DNA of 48,810 nt. It comes from an uncultured Gammaproteobacteria bacterium (GTDB taxonomy: Bacteria; Pseudomonadota; Gammaproteobacteria; Poriferisulfidales; GCA-002705445). Under the pieces are notes generated by a model that saw only the letters and a list, made by a program, of their open reading frames with translations, was not told the origin of the DNA and did not search any database. Shown here one piece after another: positions 2,234 through 45,522 of this stretch. A program made the translations under genes and the position numbers. The stretch spans positions 1 through 48,810 of the forward strand of contig CAJXAV010000006.1 in the NCBI GenBank assembly GCA_913050095.1, written 5' to 3'. How positions within the stretch are numbered: the stretch's first letter is position 1; each line of letters opens with the position of its first letter.

Positions 2234-5188
2234 ATGTCGGTTAAACAGGACAAGTTAACTTTTAAAAAAGATTTATTTAGCAACAATGCTAGTAAATTAC
2301 CAAAGTTTGAAAATCATGATAAGCAAACTCAAAAAAACACAACGTGCTATATGTGCGCGTGCAGATGCGGTATTAAGGTAACTTTAGAAAATAATAAAAT
2401 TCGTTATATCCAGGGTGAACCGACACATCCAGTGAACAAGGGAGTTCTTTGCGCAAAAGGTAATGCTGGCATAATGAAGCAGATTTCTCCAGCTAGATTA
2501 AGACAACCTATGATGAGAAAACCTGGTGCTGAGAGAGGCACAAGCGAATTTGTTCCAATCAGTTGGGATGATGCTTTAGATATGCTTACAGAAAGATTAA
2601 GCAAAATAAGGGAAACAGATCCAAAAAAACTAGCTTTCTTTACTGGAAGAGACCAAATGCAAGCTTTGACAGGCTTGTGGGCACAACAATTTGGAACCAT
2701 AAACTGGGCAGCCCATGGTGGTTTTTGTTCCGTAAATATGGCTGCTGCCGGATTGTATACTACTGGATTCTCTTTTTGGGAATTTGGAGACCCAGATTGG
2801 GAAAAAACAAAATACTTTATGCTTTGGGGCGTCGCTGAAGATCATGCATCAAATCCAATAAAGATGGGTCTAAATAGATTAAAAGAACGTGGAGGAAAAT
2901 TTGTAGCTGTCAATCCTGTAAGAACTGGTTACCAGGCTATTGCAGATGAATGGATTCCAATCAAGCCTGGAACAGATGCAATGTTAGCTCTATCACTAAT
3001 ACACGTTCTTCTAAAAAATGAATTATTTGACTGGGAGTTCTTAGTTAGATATACCAATGCACATTATCTTGTTGTTGATACTCCTAGAAAAAAAGGTGAC
3101 GGCTTATTTATCAGAAATGAAAAAGGCGTGCCTCAATCATGGGATTTAGAGAAAGATTGTTTAGTAAATGCTACAGATCCAAAAATCAAACCAGCTTTAT
3201 TAGGTAATTTTAAATCTCCAGAAGGGACTCCCGTTAAAACTGCATTTACGATAATGACAGAAAGATATATGAGTGATGAGTATTCCCCGGAGAACGCAAG
3301 TAAGGTTTGCGGAGTTCCAGCAAAACAAATTGAAAAAATAGCATTAGAGTTAGCACATGTTGCTTTTAAGGAATCAATAGAAGTTGAAACCGAATGGACA
3401 GACTGGACAGGAAGAAAACATGATAAATTTATAGGGAGGCCAGTCTCAATGCATGCTATGAGAGGTATATCTGCTCATTCAAATGGATTCCAAGCGTGCA
3501 GAGCAATTCATTTTTTACAGGTCTTACTGGGCTCAGTGGATTGCCCGGGAGGACATCTAGCAAAACCACCATACCCTAAACATGTCGCTCCCCCAATAAA
3601 ACCTGGAAAAAAAGTTGTTCCTGGGCAGCCCTTAGAAAGTTTCCCTTTAGGGTTCCCAACTGAGCCAGAAGATCTTGCTATAGATGATGATGGAAATCCA
3701 TTGAGAATTGATAAGGCTTATTCTTGGGAGGCACCAATTGCAAATCACGGTTTAATGCATATGGCAATAACAAATGCCGTTGCAGGTGATCCTTACGAGA
3801 TAGATACTATGATTTTCTTTATGGCGAATATGGCTTGGAACTCAACCATGAACACCACTAAGATGAGAGAAAACCTTTGCGCAAAAAATGCAGATGGAGA
3901 ATATAAAATTCCGTTTCTTGTAGTTTGCGATGCATTTGATTCAGAAACAGTTGGCTATGCTGATCTAGTTATACCTGATACAACATATTTAGAGAGGTAC
4001 GATACCATATCAATATTAGATCGACCAATATCTGAGCCACATGCAGTATGTGATTCTATTAGAGCTCCAATCTTAGAGCCTGATAGAGATGTGAGACCTT
4101 GGCAAACTGTTTTAGTAGAGCTTGCAAGTAGATTAAAATTTCCTGCATTTACCAAAGAAAATGGTGACAGAAAATTTAAGGATTATAAAGATTTTATAAT
4201 TAATTTTGAAAAAGCTCCAGGCATTGGCTTTTTAGCAGGTTGGCGTGGTGAAAATGGAGAAAATAGTTTAAAAGGAAAGCCTAATCCGAATCAGTGGGAA
4301 AAATATATTGAGAACAAATGTTTCTTTGAATACAAATTAGCTGATCATCATAAATATTTTCGAGGCGCAAATAAAGACTATTTGGAGTTTGCAAAAAAAT
4401 CTGGTTTTAATGCTTCGAGTGATCCAATTATTATTGAGTTATATTCAGAAAAACTACAGAAATTTAAATTAGCAGGAATGGGGCTTTACGATGGTCCTCA
4501 GCCAAAAAAAGAAAGAGATCAGTTTAGATTATCAAGATTTTTTGATCCTATCCCAGAATATTATATTCCTTTAGAGCATAGATGTACTTTCTCTAAAGCT
4601 TTTCCTTTTTATGCAATTACTCAAAGACCAATGTTTATGTACCACTCTTGGGATTCTCAGAATGCGTGGTTAAGACAATTGCAAGCTCATAACTACATGC
4701 ATATGAATAAAGAAAAAGGAGAAGAGTTAGGAATTGAAGATTTGTCTTGGGTGTGGGTAGAGTCAAATACCGGAAAGATCAAAGTTCAAGTAAAATTAAT
4801 GGAAGGGTGTCAGAGCGACACACTATGGACTTGGAATGCTATCGGTAAACAAAAAGGTAAATGGGGTTTATCAGATGATGCAAATGAATCTACCAAAGGT
4901 TTTTTAATGAATCATTTGATTAATGAGCATTTACCTTGCGCAGATACTGGAAGCCCAGTTACAAACTCTGATCCTATAACTGGCCAAGCTGCATGGTACG
5001 ACTTAAAAGTTAATGTATATCCTGCGGGCCCTGATGAGCAGTTTGGTGTGTACCCTAATTTTGAAGCGGCTTCAAAGCTTCCTGGAAGTCCGGAAACAAA
5101 CGATATTCTTAGATACAACACAAAGAAACCAGTAAGACTATCTAGGTCAATAATTGATATTTTAACTAAAGGTGGGTTTGAAAAATGA
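2234..5188 (+). CDS. soeA: Sulfite dehydrogenase (quinone) molybdopterin subunit SoeA
   Basis: This is the catalytic subunit of a DMSO-reductase superfamily enzyme that oxidises sulfite to sulfate in the cytoplasm. It has 984 residues, the usual length for SoeA. An N-terminal [4Fe-4S] site is formed by Cys38, Cys41, Cys45 and Cys73 (CYMCACRC...GVLC). Cys165 in GGFCSVNMAAAG is the expected molybdenum ligand, as in polysulfide reductase-type enzymes. There is no twin-arginine signal, which separates it from the exported PsrA/PhsA relatives. It overlaps soeB by 4 bases (ATGA) and a membrane subunit follows, giving the full three-subunit set. A thiosulfate or polysulfide reductase cannot be excluded, but missing export signal and sqr neighbourhood favour sulfite oxidation. 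Confidence 0.85.
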   Translation: MSVKQDKLTFKKDLFSNNASKLPKFENHDKQTQKNTTCYMCACRCGIKVTLENNKIRYIQGEPTHPVNKGVLCAKGNAGIMKQISPARLRQPMMRKPGAERGTSEFVPISWDDALDMLTERLSKIRETDPKKLAFFTGRDQMQALTGLWAQQFGTINWAAHGGFCSVNMAAAGLYTTGFSFWEFGDPDWEKTKYFMLWGVAEDHASNPIKMGLNRLKERGGKFVAVNPVRTGYQAIADEWIPIKPGTDAMLALSLIHVLLKNELFDWEFLVRYTNAHYLVVDTPRKKGDGLFIRNEKGVPQSWDLEKDCLVNATDPKIKPALLGNFKSPEGTPVKTAFTIMTERYMSDEYSPENASKVCGVPAKQIEKIALELAHVAFKESIEVETEWTDWTGRKHDKFIGRPVSMHAMRGISAHSNGFQACRAIHFLQVLLGSVDCPGGHLAKPPYPKHVAPPIKPGKKVVPGQPLESFPLGFPTEPEDLAIDDDGNPLRIDKAYSWEAPIANHGLMHMAITNAVAGDPYEIDTMIFFMANMAWNSTMNTTKMRENLCAKNADGEYKIPFLVVCDAFDSETVGYADLVIPDTTYLERYDTISILDRPISEPHAVCDSIRAPILEPDRDVRPWQTVLVELASRLKFPAFTKENGDRKFKDYKDFIINFEKAPGIGFLAGWRGENGENSLKGKPNPNQWEKYIENKCFFEYKLADHHKYFRGANKDYLEFAKKSGFNASSDPIIIELYSEKLQKFKLAGMGLYDGPQPKKERDQFRLSRFFDPIPEYYIPLEHRCTFSKAFPFYAITQRPMFMYHSWDSQNAWLRQLQAHNYMHMNKEKGEELGIEDLSWVWVESNTGKIKVQVKLMEGCQSDTLWTWNAIGKQKGKWGLSDDANESTKGFLMNHLINEHLPCADTGSPVTNSDPITGQAAWYDLKVNVYPAGPDEQFGVYPNFEAASKLPGSPETNDILRYNTKKPVRLSRSIIDILTKGGFEK

Positions 5189-5880
5189 GACTAGGACTCG
5201 TAGTAGATTTAGATAAATGTGTTGGTTGCAACGCATGTGCAATTGCTTGTAAACAGTGGAACACTTCTGGAACTTCTGGATCTTTAACTGACTATAGACC
5301 TTACGGCCCTGACCCAAGTGGAGTATTTTTTAATAGGATAAGACATTATGAAACTGGAACGTATCCAGAAAATAAAACTGTACACTTTCCGATGTCATGC
5401 ATGCATTGCGAAGAAGCGGCATGTGTAACTGTTTGCCCAACAGGCGCATCCTACAAACGAGAAGAAGATGGTATTGTTTTAGTTGATCCCGAAAAATGCA
5501 TGGGATGTAATTATTGTGCATGGGCTTGTCCTTACGGAGCAAGAGAACTTGATAGAGAAGAAGGCATTATGAAAAAATGTACCTTGTGCGTAGATAGAAT
5601 TTATGATGAGAATTTACCAAAAGAAGAGCGTAAACCTGCGTGCGTAATGACTTGTCCCACAACAGCAAGATATTTTGGAGATTTTGATGATCCAAATTCT
5701 GAAGTTTCACTTGCATCTAAAAAAAGAGAAGGGCAAGAATTATTTCCTGAATTAGGATACAAACCAGTAAATCAGTATTTATCACCAAGAAAAAAAGTAG
5801 AAACAAAACAGCACGAAACAAAAGAACCGAGTTTAGTTAAACAAGTCAAAGACTGGGTTAACCAAGTTGTTGAATTATAA
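5185..5880 (+). CDS. soeB: Sulfite dehydrogenase iron-sulfur subunit SoeB
   Basis: A 231-residue ferredoxin-like electron-transfer subunit that carries electrons from the molybdenum subunit to the membrane subunit. Four cysteine clusters are visible in the order expected for DmsB/PsrB/SoeB proteins: CVGCNACAIAC near residue 12, CMHCEEAACVTVCP near 72, CMGCNYCAWACP near 105, and CTLC...CVMTCP near 132-157, enough for four [4Fe-4S] centres. It has no signal peptide, so it stays in the cytoplasm with SoeA. Its start codon overlaps the soeA stop (ATGA), indicating translational coupling. The last 30 residues are a basic, low-complexity tail. Confidence 0.9.
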   Translation: MRLGLVVDLDKCVGCNACAIACKQWNTSGTSGSLTDYRPYGPDPSGVFFNRIRHYETGTYPENKTVHFPMSCMHCEEAACVTVCPTGASYKREEDGIVLVDPEKCMGCNYCAWACPYGARELDREEGIMKKCTLCVDRIYDENLPKEERKPACVMTCPTTARYFGDFDDPNSEVSLASKKREGQELFPELGYKPVNQYLSPRKKVETKQHETKEPSLVKQVKDWVNQVVEL

Positions 5881-17862: not shown

Positions 17863-18341
17863 TGAGTAGTATTCAAAAAATTTCAGGTAAAGTTGAATGG
17901 ATTGGTGTAAGAGAACCTAAGGGTGATATTAAAAGTATGGATTCAGTCTATGCAATCGAAGGCCTTGGCTTGGAAGGTGATAAGATTACTAAGAAAAGCT
18001 CAAAAAAAAGACAAGTAACTTTGATGCAAAAAGAACATATCTCTGTTATCTTGTCGCTAGCACAAGAAGAGGACAGAAGTAAAATAGATAAAATTCAATA
18101 TTATTTTAAAAGAAATTTATTAATCTCTAAGTATAATATTGATAATCTTAAAGGAAAAATTTTTAGTATTGGTGAGGCAAGACTTCTTGGAACAGGTGAT
18201 TGTAAGCCTTGTAAAAAAATAGAAAAATTACTTGGAAAAAAAATGTTGGACGCAATGCAAGGGATGGGTGGCATCACTGCTACAGTTATTAAATCAGGTA
18301 AAATAAAAGTAAATGATAGTTTAAATTTGGAAACTGAATAA
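17862..18341 (+). CDS. MOSC domain protein
   Basis: A 159-residue single-domain protein. The MOSC signature, including the conserved cysteine that can hold sulfur as a persulfide, is seen in LGTGDCKPCKKIEKLLG (about residues 106-122), followed by GMGGITATVIKSGKIKVND, the barrel strand that ends the domain. MOSC proteins transfer sulfur or bind molybdenum-cofactor substrates; standalone ones are mostly uncharacterised. It overlaps both serS and aspS by one base each, so it is produced with the two synthetases. Two molybdenum enzymes in the window make a link to molybdenum or sulfur chemistry reasonable, but that is inference. Confidence 0.82.
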   Translation: MSSIQKISGKVEWIGVREPKGDIKSMDSVYAIEGLGLEGDKITKKSSKKRQVTLMQKEHISVILSLAQEEDRSKIDKIQYYFKRNLLISKYNIDNLKGKIFSIGEARLLGTGDCKPCKKIEKLLGKKMLDAMQGMGGITATVIKSGKIKVNDSLNLETE

Positions 18342-20116
18342 TGAGAACATATTATTGTAATCAAATAAATGAATCGCAAATTGAAAGTGAAGTTCAAGTT
18401 TGTGGCTGGGTAAATAAAATAAGAGATCACGGTGGAGTAATTTTTATAGATCTTAGAGATATAAAAGGCTTAGTGCAAATCGTAGTTAACCCAGACAACA
18501 AAAATCTTTTTAATTTAGCGGAATCTATTAGAAGTGAATATATTATTTCAGTAACAGGCAAGCCTAGACTAAGACCACCTGGATCTGAAAATTTAAAAAT
18601 TGATTCTGGAAAAGTCGAAATTGTAAGTTCACAATTAGAAATTTTATCGAAAGCCGAAACACCACCTTTTCAGTTTGGCGATGATGTTAATGAAGATAAC
18701 AGGCTAAAATATCGAGTTCATGATTTAAAAAGTAATAAGATGCAAAAAAATTTATCTGTTAGAAGTACTGTTGTTAAAATTATCAGGAATTATTTATCTC
18801 AGCTAGACTTTTTAGAAATAGAAACACCTATATTAACAAAAGCTACTCCTGAAGGAGCAAGAGATTATTTGGTGCCAAGCAGAGTTAACCAAGGTCAGTT
18901 TTATGCTTTGCCACAATCGCCACAACTTTTTAAACAAATGCTTATGATGTCAGGTTATGAGAAATATTATCAAATTGCAAAATGTTTTAGAGATGAGGAT
19001 TTAAGAGCTGATAGGCAGCCAGAATTTACCCAGCTTGATATAGAAATGTCTTTTATAGATCAAAACTATGTAATCGCGGTAATAGAAAAATTATTTGAAG
19101 AAATTTTTTTAGAAGTTTTAGATTTTAAAATTAATTTACCGATTGAACGAATAACTTATTCTGATTCAATGGATAGATTTGGATCAGATAGGCCGGATAT
19201 GAGAATACCATTTGAAATAAAAAATATAAATAATATTGTCAAAGACTGTGAGTTTAAAGTTTTTTCCGACCCTGCATCACAGGACGGCAAGAAAGTAAGC
19301 GCACTTTGTATTCCATCTGAAGCAAAATTATCACGAAGAGACATAGATTTGTATACAGATATAGCTATATCTAAAGGCTCGCAAGGACTTGCATATATAA
19401 AATGCAATGATGTAAAAGATTTAGATAACGGTCTGCAATCACCAATTATTAAGTTTTTAGACGCAAAGACAATTGAAAATATTTTAAAAGACGTCAATGC
19501 AACTAATGGCGACATTATATTTTTTAGCGCTGGACCTGATAGCCTTGTAAATAATATTTTAGGCTCACTAAGATGTAAAATAGCTGAAGACAAAAATTTA
19601 ATTAATGATGAATGGAAGTTTGTATGGGTAACTGATTTTCCAATGTTTGAACACGATATTGAAACAAAAAAATGGAAGTGTTTACATCACCCATTTACAA
19701 TGCCAGTTTTTACTAATACTGAAGATATTGAAAAAAATCCCCAATCACTTCTATCAAAGTCTTATGATTTAGTTTTAAATGGAACTGAGTTAGGTGGTGG
19801 ATCAATAAGAATAAATGATTCAGAGGTTCAAAACTCTATTTTTAATGTTCTTGGGTTAAATGATAAGGAAATTAAGAATCAGTTTGGTTTTTTTATTGAG
19901 TCAATGAAATATGGTTGCCCACCTCATGGAGGTATAGCATTTGGTTTAGATAGAATAATAATGTTAATTACTAAATCTAAATCTATAAGGGAGGTCATCG
20001 CGTTTCCAAAAACTCAAACCGCATCATGCTCGTTGACTGGCGCACCTGCAAATATTGACCAGGAACAGATTAATGATCTTGGATTAAAATTAAACAATAA
20101 AGATTTAAAAAAATGA
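18341..20116 (+). CDS. aspS: Aspartyl-tRNA synthetase
   Basis: Charges tRNA-Asp, and tRNA-Asn if the enzyme is non-discriminating. It has 591 residues, the full bacterial length with the inserted GAD domain (about residues 285-420). The N-terminal OB-fold reads CGWVNKIRDHGGVIFIDLRD; motif 2 is CFRDEDLRADRQPEFTQLD and motif 3 is GIAFGLDRIIMLI. The lethal-mutation-free motif 1 region ETPILTKATPEGARDYLVPS is intact. It overlaps the MOSC gene by one base and nudB by four. aspS-nudB-yebC is the classical gammaproteobacterial order. Confidence 0.96.
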   Translation: MRTYYCNQINESQIESEVQVCGWVNKIRDHGGVIFIDLRDIKGLVQIVVNPDNKNLFNLAESIRSEYIISVTGKPRLRPPGSENLKIDSGKVEIVSSQLEILSKAETPPFQFGDDVNEDNRLKYRVHDLKSNKMQKNLSVRSTVVKIIRNYLSQLDFLEIETPILTKATPEGARDYLVPSRVNQGQFYALPQSPQLFKQMLMMSGYEKYYQIAKCFRDEDLRADRQPEFTQLDIEMSFIDQNYVIAVIEKLFEEIFLEVLDFKINLPIERITYSDSMDRFGSDRPDMRIPFEIKNINNIVKDCEFKVFSDPASQDGKKVSALCIPSEAKLSRRDIDLYTDIAISKGSQGLAYIKCNDVKDLDNGLQSPIIKFLDAKTIENILKDVNATNGDIIFFSAGPDSLVNNILGSLRCKIAEDKNLINDEWKFVWVTDFPMFEHDIETKKWKCLHHPFTMPVFTNTEDIEKNPQSLLSKSYDLVLNGTELGGGSIRINDSEVQNSIFNVLGLNDKEIKNQFGFFIESMKYGCPPHGGIAFGLDRIIMLITKSKSIREVIAFPKTQTASCSLTGAPANIDQEQINDLGLKLNNKDLKK

Positions 20117-20532
20117 AGAAAATTCCAATATCAGTTTTAGTTTTAATATATACGAAAAAAAAAGATATATTAATTTTAAAGAAAAAAAATAATAAAGATT
20201 TATGGCAATCTGTTACAGGCAGTATTAATAAGGGAGAAAGTCTAATTGATGCCGCAAAAAGAGAAGTCTATGAAGAGACAGGCCTAAATACTGACAATAT
20301 TGTGGATTGTAACAAAAACTATATTTTCGAGATCTACGATATGTGGAAACATAAGTATGAAGATGAAGTTACTCATAATACTGAACATGTTTTTTTGCTT
20401 GAGCTTGACGATAAAATAGATATTTCATTAGATAGTGATGAACATGTTTCATATGAGTGGACCTCAAGAGTAAAGGCAGCGGAAAAAGTTTTTTCACATA
20501 CAAATAGGCAAGCTATTTTTGATTTAATTTAA
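20113..20532 (+). CDS. nudB: Dihydroneopterin triphosphate diphosphatase NudB
   Basis: A 139-residue Nudix hydrolase that removes pyrophosphate from dihydroneopterin triphosphate in folate synthesis. The Nudix box is complete: G at GSINKGESLIDAAKREVYEE followed by TGL, about residues 36-58, holding the REVYEE metal-binding core. The start overlaps the aspS stop (ATGA). The exact substrate follows from position between aspS and yebC, as in E. coli; the sequence alone shows only a Nudix enzyme. Confidence 0.88.
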   Translation: MKKIPISVLVLIYTKKKDILILKKKNNKDLWQSVTGSINKGESLIDAAKREVYEETGLNTDNIVDCNKNYIFEIYDMWKHKYEDEVTHNTEHVFLLELDDKIDISLDSDEHVSYEWTSRVKAAEKVFSHTNRQAIFDLI

Positions 20533-20556: not shown

Positions 20557-21282
20557 ATGGCAGGACATAGTAAATGGGCAAATATTCAACATAGAAAAAA
20601 GAGACAAGATGCTAAACGCGGAAAACTATTTACAAAACTTATAAAAGAAATAACAGTTGCTGCAAGAGAAGGTGGAGGTGACCCCGATTCAAACCCAAGA
20701 TTACGTCTTGCACTTGATAAAGCTTTCTCTGGAAATATGAATAAAGACACCATAGAAAAAGCTATCAATAGAGGCACTGGAAATCTTGAAGGAGTTAACT
20801 ATGAAGAATTAACCTATGAAGGCTACAGCTCATCCGGAGCAGCTTTAATAGTTGAATGCGTTACAGATAACAAGAATAGGACTGTTGCAGAGGTAAGGCA
20901 TATATTCTCAAAATATTCAGGTAATTTAGGCAGTTCGGGTTCAGTAGCATATCTTTTCAAAAAATTGGGCGTCATTACCTACGAAAGTACAGATAACGCA
21001 GAAGAAATAATGGATCTTGCAATTGAAAATAACGCTATTGATATAGTTCATGAAAAAAATTATGTTGAAATTCATACAGATAAGTCTGATTATTTAGGTA
21101 TTGCCGAAGTTTTAAAAAGTAATAATTTTATTTTTGATAGCGCTGATTTAGAGATGCACGCCGATACAAAAATTGAATTAAACCCAGAAAATACAGAATC
21201 ATTCATAAAATTTATTGATGCGCTTGAAGATTTAGACGACGTTCAAAATGTTTATACAAATGCCGAATATTCAGAAGAATAA
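20557..21282 (+). CDS. yebC: YebC/PmpR family transcriptional and translational regulator
   Basis: A 241-residue DNA/RNA-associated protein of the YebC family. The N-terminus AGHSKWANIQHRKKRQDAKRGK is the family hallmark (MAGHSKWANI seen directly), and the central GNLGSSGSVAYLFKK is equally typical. Members regulate transcription or relieve ribosome stalling at proline-rich stretches. It has its own AGAGG ribosome site before the ATG. In most gammaproteobacteria ruvC follows; here a different nuclease gene does. Confidence 0.95.
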   Translation: MAGHSKWANIQHRKKRQDAKRGKLFTKLIKEITVAAREGGGDPDSNPRLRLALDKAFSGNMNKDTIEKAINRGTGNLEGVNYEELTYEGYSSSGAALIVECVTDNKNRTVAEVRHIFSKYSGNLGSSGSVAYLFKKLGVITYESTDNAEEIMDLAIENNAIDIVHEKNYVEIHTDKSDYLGIAEVLKSNNFIFDSADLEMHADTKIELNPENTESFIKFIDALEDLDDVQNVYTNAEYSEE

Positions 21283-21328
21283 AATTAAAGTAGAATATAA
21301 TTTTTAGTATTAATACGGAGACAAAGAA

Positions 21329-21643
21329 ATGTCAAAAATGCAAAGAGATAAGGGTAAGCGTTTTGAGAGAGAAGTTGTAAATACACTTAAAGAATCTGGT
21401 TTTTTTAGTGCAAAAAGAATACCTTTATCAGGATTGCAAGAGGGGTTTAAAGGTGACATTCTTTTAAAAAGAAATGAAACATCAAAAGAACTTCTCGGAG
21501 AATGTAAAAGTCGTGCTGGTGGATTTAAATTAATTTATGATGCTAAAGAACAAGATGACGCAGATATTTTATTTATTAAGCAAGATAGAAAGCCCGTACT
21601 AGTAGTTATGTCTTTAGAAGATTATATAAAAGGTGATTTTTAA
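21329..21643 (+). CDS. PD-(D/E)XK nuclease resembling Hjc-type Holliday junction resolvases
   Basis: A 104-residue protein with the compact core of Hjc-like and phage PD-(D/E)XK resolvases. In order: RDKGKRFEREVV (Glu13 matching the ERE motif helix), the substrate-loop segment RIPLSG, the catalytic Asp43 in FKGDILL, and Glu58-Cys-Lys60 in LLGECKSRAGG; then a helix and a final strand (PVLVVMSLEDY). GGAG at 21317-21320 sets the start at 21329. The gene occupies the slot between yebC and ybgC that holds ruvC-ruvA-ruvB in Pseudomonas-type genomes, so junction cleavage is a natural guess. A different nuclease role or a phage-derived gene remains possible. Confidence 0.75.
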   Translation: MSKMQRDKGKRFEREVVNTLKESGFFSAKRIPLSGLQEGFKGDILLKRNETSKELLGECKSRAGGFKLIYDAKEQDDADILFIKQDRKPVLVVMSLEDYIKGDF

Positions 21644-21653
21644 ATAATAACAT

Positions 21654-22067
21654 ATGTTATCAAAAAAAATTGATATAAGAGTTTATTACGAAGATACTGA
21701 TTCAGGAGGAATAGTATATTATGCAAACTACTTTAAATTTACAGAAAGATGTAGAACAGAATTGCTAAGAGATTTCGGACTAAATCAAACAGATATTTTT
21801 AATAAACATAATATAAAGTTCATTGTTCATAGCGTTTCTATGGAATATATTAATCCATCTTATTTAGATGACATGTTAACAGTAGAAACCTCAATTTCGT
21901 TTACAAAAAAAGCATCTATAGAATTTGATCAAAAAATTTATAAGATTTTAGGAAATAATAAAATTGATATAATTAAATCTAAATGTAAAATAGTATCAAT
22001 TGATAGTAATCTAAAAATAAAAGCCATGCCTAGTGATATCTTAAAAAAATTTTTGGAGGTTAAATGA
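21654..22067 (+). CDS. ybgC: Tol-Pal associated acyl-CoA thioesterase YbgC
   Basis: A 137-residue hot-dog fold thioesterase. The active-site region VYYEDTDSGGIVYYANYF has the catalytic Asp in the conserved YxDTDxxGxVYYxNY motif, followed by ERCRTELLRDFG. It hydrolyses short acyl-CoA or acyl-ACP thioesters and is nearly always the first gene of the tol-pal cluster. Its end overlaps tolQ by four bases (ATGA). The start follows the nuclease gene by 10 bases without an obvious ribosome site. Confidence 0.93.
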   Translation: MLSKKIDIRVYYEDTDSGGIVYYANYFKFTERCRTELLRDFGLNQTDIFNKHNIKFIVHSVSMEYINPSYLDDMLTVETSISFTKKASIEFDQKIYKILGNNKIDIIKSKCKIVSIDSNLKIKAMPSDILKKFLEVK

Positions 22068-22759
22068 ATAGTCTTATTCACCTAGCTTTGAATGCAAGTT
22101 TTTTAGTTCAAATAGTAATGATAGTTCTTCTTTGTTTGTCAATATGGAGCTGGGTAATAATAATAAATAAGCGTAAAGAGTTAAAAATTATCTTAGAAAA
22201 TACTATAAAATTTAATCAAAAAATATGGTCAGGCTTTCAAATGCATAAATATTATGTGCAAATTAAAGATAAAAGAAATAAAACACCAATAGAAGAGATT
22301 TTTTACGCCGGCTGGAATAGGTATGAAACTCTACATAATGAACAAAAAATTATAACACCAGAAAGAATACCACAAACATCACTAAGAGCTATGCAAGTTG
22401 CTATATCTATTGAAAATGAATCTTTAGAAACAGATTTGCAAACACTAGCAACAATTGCTTCTGTTAGCCCATACATTGGTTTGTTAGGTACTGTATGGGG
22501 AATTATGAATTCATTTCAATCTTTAAGCCAGACTTCACAAACAACAATAGCACTTGTAGCGCCAGGTATATCTGAAGCTTTAATAGCTACTGCTTTAGGC
22601 CTTATAGCAGCTATTCCTGCAGTCATTGCTTATAACAAATTTAATCGCGATATTTCCATGATAATTTCAAGGTATGAGAATTTTGCAGAGGAATTAACAG
22701 AGATCTTACAGAGAGATAATATTCCTATAAAGGAAGAAAATAATGAGACGCCAAAGTAA
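22064..22759 (+). CDS. tolQ: Tol-Pal system protein TolQ
   Basis: An inner-membrane proton-channel subunit of 231 residues that, with TolR, energises TolA for outer-membrane constriction at division. The first helix (LVQIVMIVLLCLSIWSWVIII) is followed by a cytoplasmic loop and two C-terminal helices: SPYIGLLGTVWGIMNSF and ATALGLIAAIPAVIAYN, the conserved ExbB/MotA/TolQ core with its Thr residues. Overlaps ybgC by 4 bases and tolR by 17 bases, so the complex is made in a coupled way. Confidence 0.95.
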   Translation: MNSLIHLALNASFLVQIVMIVLLCLSIWSWVIIINKRKELKIILENTIKFNQKIWSGFQMHKYYVQIKDKRNKTPIEEIFYAGWNRYETLHNEQKIITPERIPQTSLRAMQVAISIENESLETDLQTLATIASVSPYIGLLGTVWGIMNSFQSLSQTSQTTIALVAPGISEALIATALGLIAAIPAVIAYNKFNRDISMIISRYENFAEELTEILQRDNIPIKEENNETPK

Positions 22760-29654: not shown

Positions 29655-31898
29655 ATGGCAGCTAAACCAAAAGAGTTTTCTAGTTCGGTAGTTAATTATA
29701 TTCCAAAAATAAAACCGCCTGAAGGGCATTCAATACATCATATATGTTGTCCGCATGATTGTCCTGATACATGCTCAATGCTTGTAACTAGAGATGACAA
29801 AACTGGCAAAGCTATAAGTGTTCAAGGTGATCCATCCCACCCAATAACCAGAGGATATTTATGTAATAAGGTTAATCATTACATAGATCTTGTATACAAC
29901 GAAAATAGAGTTTTGTATCCGCACAAGAGGGTTGGTCCTAAAGGCCCTGGAGCTAAATTTGAAAGAATATCATGGGACGAAGCCTTAGAAACAATTACAA
30001 GCGACTTTAAAAAAACTATTAAAGATTATGGGACGGAAGCTGTTCAGCCATTCTCATATTCTGGAACTCTTGGTATGTTAGGTTATTGGACAATGGATAG
30101 CAGGTTCTGGAATAAGATGGAAGCCGCAAGACTAGAGCAATCTATATGTATTTATGCAGCTATGTGGGCAGGACTATATACATATGGTATGGCTAATGGA
30201 CCTCATGTTGGTGAAGCAGCAAGAGATGGTTGCGAGTTAATGATATTATGGGCAACAAACTTAGTTAGCACAGGAGTTCATTCAATACCTTTTATTAGAG
30301 AAGCAAAAGATAGGGGAATGAAGTTAGTAGTTGTTGACCCAAGAAAAACAAGAACAACAATGTTTGCTGATGTACACATACAACCTAAACCTGGTACAGA
30401 TGCATTTTTGGCTAACGCTATGATAAAAGTGATCGTGGATAAAAACCTTCATGATGTTGAGTTTTTGAATTCACAAACACATGGTTGGGAAGAATTTGTT
30501 GAAAAAGTTCTGCCTAAATATACTTTGGAAGAAGCAGAAAAAATTACCGGAGTAAAAGCTGAGGTCATTGAAGAACTTGCTGTTGAATATGCAAAAACAA
30601 AAAAATCTTATATAAGAGCCAATTACGGGTTAAATAGACATCAAAATTCCGGCCAAATGTGTCGAGCAGTCTTAATACTTCCATGCTTTAATGGTTCTTG
30701 GAGAGAAGAGTGTGGCGGTGTTGCATTTGGACAATTAGAGGAAATGTGGCTTCGCTTTGATTTAGGTAAGCTGCATAGGCCAGATTTAGGAAATAGAGCA
30801 GAAAAAAGAGTTGTTAATATGGTTCAAATTGGAAGAGCTTTAGCAGACAATATTGGAGAGGATGGAGAGCAGCTTGATCCACCTATTAAATCTTTATTTG
30901 TTTATAATAGTGATATCGCAAACTGTACTCCAAATAGCGGTAATGTAAGGAAAGGTATGTCCAGAGACGATTTATTCATTACTGTTCACGAGACATTTTG
31001 GACTGACTCTTGTATGTATGCAGATATTGTATTGCCTGCCGATACAGCCCTTGAAAGACATGATTGTCATTGGGCATATGGTTCCTGGTTTTTAGGAATA
31101 AATAAACCTGTTATCGAGCCTCTTGGAGAAAGTATTAATAATACAGAATTATTCAGAATGCTTGCAGATAAAATGGGCTATGTTGACTCTACAGATAATG
31201 CATTCACGCAAACTGATGAAGAAATAATCAAAGATATATTATTAGAAGCTGAGAACGAAGACGGCGAAAGATTTAACTGTCTAACAGAGGGAATAAATTA
31301 TGATGATGTTGTAAAAAATGGTTGGGCAAGGGCATCTACAAACTCAAAAAGACGTGATTTTTTAAATAATGGTTGGGAAACTCCTAGCGGCAAAATAGAA
31401 ATAAAGTGTGAAGCTATTACTGAAGCTTACCCAGATGTTAGTCCTTTCCCTGAATATGTTCCAGAAATTAATGGTCAATATGACCCAGCGAAGTCAAAAT
31501 ACCCAATACAAGTTCTGAGTAGTGCTTCTCATTATTTTATAGGTGACTCTTTTCAATCGGTTCCAAGATTACAAGCTATGCAATCTAGACCGACTGTAGA
31601 ACTTAGTGTGAATGACGCAAAACAAAGAGGTATTGAGGATGGAGATCTCGTAAGATTATATAATGAACAAGGTGATACATATTGTTATGCTGTTATTATA
31701 GATGGATTGTTAGACGGCGTATGTGCTACACAAAAACAATTTAAAGGTAGTAATACCCCAAATGGTTTAAATGTAAATAATTTAAATAGCGAGATGCTAA
31801 CTGACTTTGGAAAGAGCCCAACTTTTTATTCTGTCCTTGTAGAGATAGAAAAGGCTAGTAAAGAAATGTCAGAGAAAGCTATTAAGCAAGGAGCATAA
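29655..31898 (+). CDS. Molybdopterin oxidoreductase of unknown substrate (DMSO-reductase superfamily)
   Basis: A 747-residue cytoplasmic enzyme without a twin-arginine signal. The N-terminal [4Fe-4S] site is Cys32, Cys36, Cys40 and Cys70 (CPHDCPDTC...YLC). By matching the segment SICIYAAMWAGLYTYG with the SoeA segment carrying its molybdenum ligand, Cys165 is the likely metal ligand, not the Ser of DMSO/biotin sulfoxide reductases. The cofactor-binding PRKTRTTMFADVHIQPKPGTD and the C-terminal SSASHYFIGDSF/VELSVNDAKQRGIEDGD domain are intact. A strong AAGGAGAGG precedes the start. The next gene begins directly after its stop and encodes a flavin/Fe-S reductase, most likely its redox partner. 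I do not recognise a characterised enzyme with this partner. Confidence 0.85.
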   Translation: MAAKPKEFSSSVVNYIPKIKPPEGHSIHHICCPHDCPDTCSMLVTRDDKTGKAISVQGDPSHPITRGYLCNKVNHYIDLVYNENRVLYPHKRVGPKGPGAKFERISWDEALETITSDFKKTIKDYGTEAVQPFSYSGTLGMLGYWTMDSRFWNKMEAARLEQSICIYAAMWAGLYTYGMANGPHVGEAARDGCELMILWATNLVSTGVHSIPFIREAKDRGMKLVVVDPRKTRTTMFADVHIQPKPGTDAFLANAMIKVIVDKNLHDVEFLNSQTHGWEEFVEKVLPKYTLEEAEKITGVKAEVIEELAVEYAKTKKSYIRANYGLNRHQNSGQMCRAVLILPCFNGSWREECGGVAFGQLEEMWLRFDLGKLHRPDLGNRAEKRVVNMVQIGRALADNIGEDGEQLDPPIKSLFVYNSDIANCTPNSGNVRKGMSRDDLFITVHETFWTDSCMYADIVLPADTALERHDCHWAYGSWFLGINKPVIEPLGESINNTELFRMLADKMGYVDSTDNAFTQTDEEIIKDILLEAENEDGERFNCLTEGINYDDVVKNGWARASTNSKRRDFLNNGWETPSGKIEIKCEAITEAYPDVSPFPEYVPEINGQYDPAKSKYPIQVLSSASHYFIGDSFQSVPRLQAMQSRPTVELSVNDAKQRGIEDGDLVRLYNEQGDTYCYAVIIDGLLDGVCATQKQFKGSNTPNGLNVNNLNSEMLTDFGKSPTFYSVLVEIEKASKEMSEKAIKQGA

Positions 31899-33038
31899 AT
31901 GTCATCAAGAAGTAACTTTATATACCCAGAAAATGGAATTCCACATTCTAAGACAAAAGTTAACTCTGCGCCTCAACCTGACGTGCAAAACAGTAGGGTT
32001 AAAATAAAAGATGCAGTAATAACATCGATGAAAAATCTTACAGACGATACTTTTTTGTTAACTGTAAAGTTAGATAATAATGAAGTCTTAAATTCACATG
32101 CTGGCCAGTATGGCACGTTAAAGGTTGAAGAACTTGATAAGCCGAGAGCTTTTTCTTTTGCAAAAGCCCCAACAAGCGAAAAGAAAGGCGAATATAGTTT
32201 TTTTATCAAACAAGTCCCAGGAGGAAAATTCTCAGAATACTTGGAAAAAGACAGATCAGGTCAAAAAATAACTTTATCTGGACCGATGGGACAATTCAAA
32301 ATTGATGATTCAGATGAAGACATGGTTTGCATAGCTGGTGGTAGCGGAATGAGCGCTATTAACGCTATTGTTGAAGACGCTGCATTTAATAAAGTCAAAA
32401 GAAATTGTTACTTTTTTTATGGGGCAAGACAACAAAAGGATTTGTATTTAGTTGACGAGATTTCAAAGATCTCAAATATTTGGGCAAAAGGTTATACTTT
32501 TAAATTTATACCAGTTTTAAGCGAAGAGCCTGAAGATTCTGATTGGACAGGTGGTAGAGGTTTTGTGACCGACTATTTTAAAGATAATTATTTGAAAACA
32601 GGAGTTGTTAAAGCAGAATCTTGTAAAGCTTTTTTTTGTGGGCCTCCCCCAATGATAAACGCCGGCGCTAAAGTTCTTGAAGATGCAGGAGTTTCTGAAG
32701 AATCCATGTTCTTTGATAAATTTGAAGATGCAAGATCACCTGCACCTGTAATAGATAATTCAAAATGTGTATTATGTGATGAATGTCTATTAGTTAAACC
32801 TACAGCTGACTGTATAGTTGAGACAGCAAGTTTAAGTGATGCAAAAGATAATGGAAAGTATGCAAATATTTCAAGAATAGATCCAGCATTCACTTCTGGA
32901 TTATATTACAACACGTTATATATTAATGAAGACAAATGTATTAGATGTTACGCCTGTGTTCATGCTTGTCCGCACAACGCAATATCACCAGAATATGATT
33001 TAGAGCCAAAAACTCTTAGAAATATGGTTAAGAATTAA
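31899..33038 (+). CDS. FNR-type flavin reductase fused to a two-cluster ferredoxin domain
   Basis: A 379-residue cytoplasmic electron-transfer protein. Residues about 35-275 are a ferredoxin-NADP reductase module: FAD motif RAFSFAKAP (83-91), phosphate loop GPMGQF, nucleotide motif CIAGGSGMSAINAI (144-157), and FFCGPPPMI near the end. Residues 285-365 carry two cysteine sets: Cys290, 293, 296, 305, then Cys347, 350, 353, 357 in CIRCYACVHACP, fit for two [4Fe-4S] centres. The first 30 residues look unstructured. The start codon abuts the stop of the molybdenum enzyme. It would shuttle electrons between NAD(P)H and that enzyme; direction is unknown. Confidence 0.85.
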   Translation: MSSRSNFIYPENGIPHSKTKVNSAPQPDVQNSRVKIKDAVITSMKNLTDDTFLLTVKLDNNEVLNSHAGQYGTLKVEELDKPRAFSFAKAPTSEKKGEYSFFIKQVPGGKFSEYLEKDRSGQKITLSGPMGQFKIDDSDEDMVCIAGGSGMSAINAIVEDAAFNKVKRNCYFFYGARQQKDLYLVDEISKISNIWAKGYTFKFIPVLSEEPEDSDWTGGRGFVTDYFKDNYLKTGVVKAESCKAFFCGPPPMINAGAKVLEDAGVSEESMFFDKFEDARSPAPVIDNSKCVLCDECLLVKPTADCIVETASLSDAKDNGKYANISRIDPAFTSGLYYNTLYINEDKCIRCYACVHACPHNAISPEYDLEPKTLRNMVKN

Positions 33039-43062: not shown

Positions 43063-45522
43063 CTATCTATTAATATCAACATATCCGCAAACATCGCAGC
43101 CAGAAATAGATTTTTTTACCATTAAATTATTTTTTGTCTTTATTCTAGAATAAATCTCGTCCAAACACTTTGTAATTAAAAGCTTAGAAGCATTAAGTTC
43201 GGTAGAATTAAATAAAGTTGACTTGATAGTATTTTTTGAGACATTTATAGATAAATACTCAAAATTATCAACTTTGCTGCTTATGAGTGAATAAAAAGGT
43301 AGCTGAAGAGAATAACCATTTATTACATCACTTTTTGTATCAACATAACCAGTTTTATAATCAACTATATACTCTTGTCTATTTAATATATATTTTAGAT
43401 CATACCTACCAACAAGTTTTATATCATCATTGTAGTCATATTCATGTTTTTTTTCTGACTGAAAATTGGATTTAAGAGAATTCTCGCAATAAAAATAATC
43501 AGCAATTTTAGGTAGAAATTTTTCCCATAATTGCAATTCGTACGAAGTTTTATCCTGATGATAAAAGATTTTTATTTTATCATTGGATAAAGATTTCAGT
43601 GAATGTAATATATCATTATAACTACCTATTTTGTTACCTTTTGTAAACAAACAAGCTAAAACTGAATGAACATATTGACCAAAAATAAGCGAAGAATTAT
43701 TTAAATCAAATTCATTTTTACAATAAGGTGAATTTAATCCTTTGTGAAAACAATAAAAACACTCGAGATAATTTTCAATATCACGATATGTCAATCTTTT
43801 ATATTTATTATTTAATTCTAAAATAATTTTTTTATTTGTATTGTTAGGTAAAATAATACTATTTTTACTTTTATAATCTTTGTAATTTTTTGTGAAATGA
43901 TCAACATACACTTTAAATTTACTTTTTGTGAGTGTTTCTGAATAATTAGATCTGTGAAATGACAAAGTTATAGAATTTGAGTTTTTATTTAATCCTATAA
44001 AACTTTCTATATCTTCAATATTTTCTATATTTGAATTTAGAGAAAAATCTTTTTTTATGACATTGTTTTTTGAAAAATTGTTAATTTTTTTCTTGGGAAA
44101 ATTTGTATTACTCATTGAACTAATATAAATTTTATCGAATTTATATAAGCTTGCATGAGCTATGTCTAAAAAATAAATATTACTTTTATTTTCTTGTGTG
44201 AAACTAGTATTTTCTAATTTTTCAATTAGTTTTTTATGCCATACAATCGGCATATAAGATTTTTTTGTTATTTTGTAATATCTATCCATTTGATTTAGAA
44301 CATTTATAAACTGTGATCCAGCTTTATCACTTTGTATAAAATTTTTTGATTCAAATAAAGATATTTTATTTATTATAAAATCTTTGAATTCTTGGAATGT
44401 GCATAAATTTTCTTCAATACTATCTTTTTTTTTATTAAAAAATTCTGTAATTAAATTTTTATCAGTTGATTTGCGTTGCTCAAAATACAAATCAAGTGAT
44501 ACATCTATATTATTTTTATAAAAATTTCTAATATTTTTTAAAAGTTCTAGTTTATTTTTTCTTGATATATTTGGTCTAAAGTATGGGGACATTACTATGT
44601 CGTATAGATTTATATAATTATTATTTAATATAAAATAATTTATTATGTTATTAATATATGAGCAAAATGTGCTAGTAGATAATAGCCAGCCATCCTTATC
44701 ATTTATTGATATATTATTTCTGTCTAAAATAGCTCTTAGTCTTCTTGCAAAATACCTATCATTATTTATTAATGCAATACTTGTATACTCATTTGATTCA
44801 AGTGTTTTTATTATATCCGATGATAAGAATGATAGCTCATCTTCTTGTTTATCAAAATCAAAACTTTGAAAATTACTTATATAATCATCAATTTCTGATT
44901 TATCAATTTTTTTATTTTCTAAATAACAAATATTTTTAAATTTATTTGAAAGCCATTTTTTTTCTAAATCATACATGCCTTCATAACAAATTAAATGTAC
45001 CTTACTGTCATTACTTGAATTATCATCATTTAATAATCTAATATATTCATTAATATATGTTTTTTCGGTATATGATTTATAAAGCCATGATTTTAATATT
45101 TCTAGAAAAATTTGTGATTCAAATGACAATAAATTAATATTAAGATTATTTACAATATCTTCATAAGAATTTTTTTCATTATTAATATATATATTATTAT
45201 CTAAAAATAATATATTTAGAAGATCTAGTATATTATCAGTCTCATTGTATAAATTTTGCTTGTTGAATATTGAGTCTGTGCTTTCTAAAATTTCTTCTAA
45301 AAAAAACTTATCTTCTTGGATTAAATTATACCCATCAACATTATTTGTGTAAAAGACAAATTCTTCCATATAAAATATTTTTATATTATCAATCTTATTT
45401 ATAGAAAGAATATATTCAATATATTTCTTTGAAATAGTTTTTGGGATAATAATGTTGTTAGTTGAGTCTTCATTTTCAATTATTGTTGAAAGCTCTTCTA
45501 ATAATGTTTGTTTACTAGTCAT
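43063..45522 (-). CDS. AddB-like PD-(D/E)XK nuclease protein (probable DNA repair)
   Basis: An 819-residue protein similar in layout to the AddB/RecC-like probable DNA repair proteins of gammaproteobacteria: a long, divergent, helicase-like N-terminal part without a Walker A motif, then a RecB-type nuclease domain. The nuclease core is visible as IFGQYVHSVLACLF (His), LVGRYDLKYIL (Asp) and EYIVDYKTGYVD (Asp-x-Lys) near residues 620-720. Two cysteine groups that normally hold an Fe-S cluster flank it: ECFYC near 600 and GCDVCGYVDINR at the very end, where the last Cys usually found before the final Arg is Asn. No helicase (AddA-like) gene is adjacent. Lys/Asn/Ser-rich and fast-evolving. Confidence 0.72.
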   Translation of the reverse strand: MTSKQTLLEELSTIIENEDSTNNIIIPKTISKKYIEYILSINKIDNIKIFYMEEFVFYTNNVDGYNLIQEDKFFLEEILESTDSIFNKQNLYNETDNILDLLNILFLDNNIYINNEKNSYEDIVNNLNINLLSFESQIFLEILKSWLYKSYTEKTYINEYIRLLNDDNSSNDSKVHLICYEGMYDLEKKWLSNKFKNICYLENKKIDKSEIDDYISNFQSFDFDKQEDELSFLSSDIIKTLESNEYTSIALINNDRYFARRLRAILDRNNISINDKDGWLLSTSTFCSYINNIINYFILNNNYINLYDIVMSPYFRPNISRKNKLELLKNIRNFYKNNIDVSLDLYFEQRKSTDKNLITEFFNKKKDSIEENLCTFQEFKDFIINKISLFESKNFIQSDKAGSQFINVLNQMDRYYKITKKSYMPIVWHKKLIEKLENTSFTQENKSNIYFLDIAHASLYKFDKIYISSMSNTNFPKKKINNFSKNNVIKKDFSLNSNIENIEDIESFIGLNKNSNSITLSFHRSNYSETLTKSKFKVYVDHFTKNYKDYKSKNSIILPNNTNKKIILELNNKYKRLTYRDIENYLECFYCFHKGLNSPYCKNEFDLNNSSLIFGQYVHSVLACLFTKGNKIGSYNDILHSLKSLSNDKIKIFYHQDKTSYELQLWEKFLPKIADYFYCENSLKSNFQSEKKHEYDYNDDIKLVGRYDLKYILNRQEYIVDYKTGYVDTKSDVINGYSLQLPFYSLISSKVDNFEYLSINVSKNTIKSTLFNSTELNASKLLITKCLDEIYSRIKTKNNLMVKKSISGCDVCGYVDINR

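Follow-up and report, generated by a model that had tools for sequence, protein, structure and literature searches.

A phage-type PD-(D/E)XK nuclease in the ruvCAB slot of a marine gammaproteobacterial family, with a probable second replacement of like kind in SAR86

In the stretch of DNA analyzed here (the window, 48,810 nucleotides, contig C6 of a 1.08-Mb draft genome), a single small gene lies where related genomes carry ruvC, ruvA and ruvB, which raises the question of whether one phage-type nuclease has taken over from RuvABC. For comparison of the locus, 12 genomes of the window's own family (f1), sampled from different projects, were set beside eight genomes of two sister families of the same order (f2 and f3). 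The gene order in the window is serS–MOSC–aspS–nudB–yebC–resolvase–ybgC–tolQ (Table 1). As the original prediction had it, the putative resolvase gene occupies the ruvCAB slot, with yebC on one side and ybgC on the other: in f2 and f3, ruvC–ruvA–ruvB were found at the same place, between yebC and ybgC or tolQ (loci L038–L044), and all nine f1 genomes with an assembled slot carried the resolvase gene in it.

Table 1. Features of the locus in the window, with the basis for each assignment
Feature	Position	Strand	Basis
aspS, conserved upstream block	18341..20116	+	Pfam and synteny
nudB (NUDIX), conserved block serS–MOSC–aspS–nudB	20113..20532	+	Pfam; synteny with f2
yebC, upstream flank	20557..21282	+	NCBIfam PRK00110 and Pfam
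Slot holding ruvC–ruvA–ruvB in f2 and f3	21283..21653	+	Gene order versus L038–L044; ruvC, ruvA and ruvB of L038 by Pfam
GGAG, likely ribosome-binding site	21317..21320	+	8 nt 5' of the ATG; read from the sequence, function inferred
PDDEXK_15 resolvase gene, 104 aa	21329..21643	+	Pfam, PHROG, PDB profile and fold matches; conservation
Predicted active site of the 21329–21643 product	Glu13, Asp43, Glu58, Lys60		
ybgC (thioesterase), downstream flank	21654..22067	+	Pfam 4HBT and synteny
tolQ, first gene of the downstream tol-pal block	22064..22759	+	Pfam MotA_ExbB and synteny

The resolvase ORF begins with ATG, 46 nt downstream of yebC, and ends 10 nt upstream of ybgC; its 104 residues include Glu13, Gly42–Asp43 and Glu58–Cys59–Lys60, exactly where the ERE...GD...ECK motifs had been placed. 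Among the f1 genomes, identity of the encoded protein was 89–93% inside the genus and 68% relative to the second genus. Within-genus amino-acid identity (90%) was the highest of the seven neighboring genes, and the pN/pS of 0.10 was the lowest among the seven genes of the locus; the resolvase gene is under strong purifying selection. A chance ORF could be ruled out, and the gene taken as real, because of this low pN/pS and its presence in every assembled f1 slot.

To follow the fate of ruvCAB beyond the window, whole genomes were searched. Neither ruvC nor ruvA was found in any of the 12 f1 genomes, including the window's own, and both were present in all eight sampled order-mates. For RuvB, the RuvB_N domain gave about 29 bits at most in f1 (up to 33 with neighboring matches), compared with 249–276 bits in the order-mates and 245–281 bits for true RuvB; these short matches, in ORFs of about 420–550 amino acids, were rejected as RuvB, since they score far lower and have the pattern of other AAA+ proteins. 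The predicted absence of ruvCAB could thus be extended from the window to its whole genome and to 11 relatives. By the same kind of search, recG was present in the window's genome; full-length recG was found in 11 of the 12 f1 genomes, and the twelfth (73% complete) gave a partial-length match only. Three f1 genomes (G003, G005 and G008) lacked the resolvase gene, but a true loss was rejected there because yebC was missing as well. Outside f1, a direct protein search found the gene in none of 43 sampled genomes.

An artefact of assembly or binning behind the ruvCAB gap, or a gene that is a prophage remnant or contaminant, is hardly credible. Such an error would be easiest to accept in a draft of 39 contigs that is 96% complete, as the window's genome is; against it, the 12 f1 genomes from different projects agree, yebC and ybgC flanked the gene wherever an assembled locus was inspected, and no further phage gene was recognized at the locus.

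Several further observations came from these genomes. Several sister genomes among G012–G019 had a second RuvB_N match of about 55–61 bits, in an ORF of about 460–500 amino acids that is possibly RarA; no f1 genome had such a match, so another replication-recombination ATPase may have been lost there too. In G022, a gammaproteobacterium 97% complete, a strong RuvB was kept, and no RuvA or RuvC was found. The window itself contains an 819-amino-acid ORF (43063–45522, minus strand) with a weak match to the double-strand break repair protein AddB. It also contains, in a genome of 1.1 Mb, two molybdopterin (DMSO-reductase family) oxidoreductase loci (2234–5880 and 29655–33038), one with an iron-sulfur subunit and the other beside a flavin reductase-like protein, to which NCBIfam cut-offs assigned no substrates.

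For assignment of the 104-residue protein to a family, its profile scores were compared with curated cut-offs. PDDEXK_15 (PF24608, "Phage putative PDDEXK endonuclease") was matched at 34.6 bits (cut-off 27), and the best PHROG was PHROG_244, a resolvase family (E = 2.2e-15). The archaeal Hjc family PF01870 was narrowly missed (20.2 bits; cut-off 21.1), the NCBIfam Hjc model NF040854 was far from reached (15.9 bits; cut-off 70), and no match to the RuvC domain (PF02075) or to the RusA and RecU Pfam families was seen at E up to 1. Of the Hjc/phage-type PD-(D/E)XK family first proposed, the phage part stood, as PDDEXK_15/PHROG_244, whereas archaeal Hjc proper had to be given up; judged by these scores, the protein is phage-type rather than an archaeal Hjc. 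The label "RusA-like" attached to PHROG_244 was dropped because the predicted fold is Hjc-type. Relatives in PDDEXK_15/PHROG_244 were found in isolated phages and in at least 80 viral-contig loci, and in only 11 of 369 genomes of the class; the closest non-cellular relatives are phage proteins, for example those of Roseobacter phages at 53% identity.

The fold and active site were approached by a combination of profile search and structure prediction. A profile built from 37 relatives matched only Hjc-type resolvases in the PDB, the best being Hjc_15-6 from a Thermus phage (3.2e-12). In this match, Glu13, Asp43, Glu58 and Lys60 align with Glu10, Asp40, Glu53 and Lys55, the proposed catalytic residues of the solved phage enzyme, in good agreement with the active site originally predicted. 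The AlphaFold model (pLDDT 85.2, pTM 0.79) has the helix and strand order of PD-(D/E)XK nucleases, and the top 17 Foldseek matches in the PDB were all Hjc-type resolvase structures, with single-chain TM-scores to Hjc that were moderate (best 0.59, rmsd about 5 Å). The comparison with Hjc thus predicts an Hjc-type fold, the alignment of individual residues coming from the sequence profile.

PDDEXK_15 was also searched for in 369 genomes sampled evenly across the class. Six of the 11 genomes that carry it lack ruvC, namely three f1 genomes together with G050, G194 and G300; the latter three all belong to one other order and have the resolvase gene between yebC and ybgC or tolQ. Of 151 genomes from the order of G194, 137 gave a PDDEXK_15 match, and ruvC was found in none. 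This order was identified as SAR86 because the FISH probe SAR86-1245 (sequence from PMC8701031) matched exactly in six of its genomes and in none of the tested genomes outside, and because 16S rRNA genes lay at the probe site in all three loci checked; the matches all fall in one of the order's four families, and the name rests for the others on the common order. The resolvase gene was beside yebC, with ybgC and tolQ opposite in nearly all cases, in 32 of the 33 SAR86 loci inspected (L161–L190 and L139–L141); at the last, L169, the gene is an additional copy away from the slot. RuvA and RuvB were searched for in G050 and found absent, and their absence elsewhere in SAR86 was judged from slot contents.

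Other genes and genomes met in this survey were treated separately. The L169 copy (1492–1911, genome G408) is a divergent PDDEXK_15 gene that lies outside the ruv slot, and its product clusters with viral proteins. PDDEXK_15 genes in G028, G120, G173 and G235 were set aside as replacements, since ruvC is kept and the context at L152 is phage-like. In G160, a small-genome gammaproteobacterium with ruvC, L148 (6440–6775) holds a weak relative of PDDEXK_15 at a site other than the ruv locus. Among ruvC-less gammaproteobacteria, G091 had no resolvase beside yebC in the stretch read, and in G148 the contig ends inside yebC.

It is quite unlikely that the window gene encodes a PD-(D/E)XK nuclease with another role (flap processing, damage or defense), its place in the slot being incidental and junctions being handled by RecG and an unrelated enzyme. 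The fold is common to many nucleases with many other jobs, and some gammaproteobacteria lack both ruvC and a PDDEXK_15 gene, so that loss of ruvC alone demands no replacement. Nevertheless, junction resolvases account for every one of the top matches in sequence and fold, the gene occupies the exact place of ruvCAB in relatives, and a second ruvC-less lineage has a member of the family in the same slot.

For the relationship between the two replacements, a tree of 102 resolvase sequences was computed from a short alignment, with many forks weak. The f1 proteins formed one clade (100/99) near phage proteins, including those of Roseobacter phage CRP-823 and Geobacillus virus E2; the SAR86 proteins fell elsewhere, in a region rich in viral sequences, nearest to the IMG/VR contig L193. 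A single clade of f1 and SAR86 resolvases was rejected (AU p = 6e-13). Because the resolvase branches are not one clade, RuvC was probably displaced twice by phage resolvases. An alternative, in which f1 and SAR86 share one ancestral replacement of ruvCAB and one lineage later exchanged its resolvase in place, would leave the f1 gene a replacement still, and is rather unlikely. It would fit the slot being the same in both lineages, and a tree of four flanking proteins is compatible with a clade of f1 and SAR86 (p = 0.22, not rejected). However, in the best tree of the flanking proteins f1 groups with f2 and f3, families that are classed in one order with f1 and keep ruvCAB; the serS–MOSC–aspS–nudB order, common to f1 and f2 and not to SAR86, likewise favors f1 with f2; and the resolvases themselves resist being joined. 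Two replacements at one slot are probably a better reading of these trees than one. RuvABC is thus likely to have been displaced at least twice at yebC–ybgC by different branches of a phage family, on one occasion in f1 and on another in the common ancestor of the entire SAR86 order, a multi-protein resolvasome giving way each time to a single small phage nuclease in ocean bacteria with small genomes.

Viral counterparts of both types were observed. Contig L193 carries at 3001–3420, among neighboring ORFs that resemble those of phages, a resolvase gene whose product shares 63% identity with the chromosomal SAR86 protein; from the sequences, its virus may have been either donor or recipient of the SAR86 gene. 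In Roseobacter phages, an f1-like resolvase (CRP-823) and SAR86-like ones (CRP-821 and CRP-406) were found at the corresponding place (L191, L233 and L234), upstream of genes for a PD-(D/E)XK nuclease-like protein, an ssDNA-binding protein and a primase/helicase. With either type at this place, phages seem to swap both among themselves.

Taken together, a phage-derived PD-(D/E)XK junction resolvase most likely took over from RuvC when ruvCAB was lost in the ancestor of f1. In the proposed course of events, the ancestor of this marine family would have lost the entire ruvCAB block from the interval separating yebC and ybgC, and the resolvase gene would have been acquired from a marine phage. 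If it acts like Hjc_15-6 and archaeal Hjc, the protein would bind the four-way junction as a homodimer and nick opposite strands, Asp43 and Glu58 holding Mg2+ and Glu13 and Lys60 assisting. Branch migration would fall to RecG instead of RuvAB, RecG being the natural candidate because RuvAB is absent; loss of the whole RuvABC set, and not of RuvC alone, is consistent with an enzyme able to act without RuvAB. We infer that the window protein cleaves Holliday junctions and functionally replaces RuvABC.

Resolvases have been described as almost matching RecA in ubiquity and conservation; RecU is the recognized stand-in for RuvC, and prophage enzymes have merely been suggested for that part (PMC1193525). 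A different resolvase in RuvC's place is therefore already known from RecU, and the swap in f1 and SAR86 adds a phage-type nuclease at the ruv slot. Literature searches, with most subscription journals outside their reach, found neither a lineage-wide displacement of RuvABC by a phage-type nuclease at that slot nor a paper pairing SAR86 with ruvC or the Holliday junction. Across a whole bacterial family, f1, all of RuvABC has disappeared and a phage-type nuclease has become fixed in its stead; in SAR86, a widespread marine clade, ruvC is gone, with a replacement of like kind. Together, the two lineages form a natural experiment, run in duplicate, on whether the tasks of RuvABC can be met by a lone resolvase assisted by RecG; they also bear on the supply of core repair genes from phages to bacteria whose genomes are reduced.

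Among known systems, Hjc_15-6 (PDB 7BGS) is the best PDB sequence match, with all four proposed catalytic residues aligned; it cleaves Holliday junctions with Mg2+ and independently of ATP (PMC8805305). It comes from a phage of a thermophile and has about 155 residues, of which only the first 60 or so align well with the window protein. The phage PDDEXK_15/PHROG_244 nucleases (Roseobacter phages CRP-823 and CRP-831; Geobacillus virus E2) belong to the same family and have the same motifs, with as much as 53% identity to the window protein over almost the full length; their genes sit among phage replication genes, whereas the window gene is a fixed chromosomal one at the ruv locus. Archaeal Hjc (Archaeoglobus, Sulfolobus, Pyrococcus) has the predicted fold and active-site pattern in common with the window protein, which is shorter, only about 20–25% identical and below both curated cut-offs. 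RusA, the resolvase of lambdoid prophages, is likewise phage-borne and bypasses RuvABC with the help of RecG, but the window protein has no RusA Pfam match. RecU in Firmicutes is a further case of another resolvase in place of RuvC across a whole lineage, with RuvAB kept (PMC1193525); its gene usually lies away from the ruvAB locus, whereas f1 has lost RuvA and RuvB along with RuvC and has the resolvase gene in their slot.
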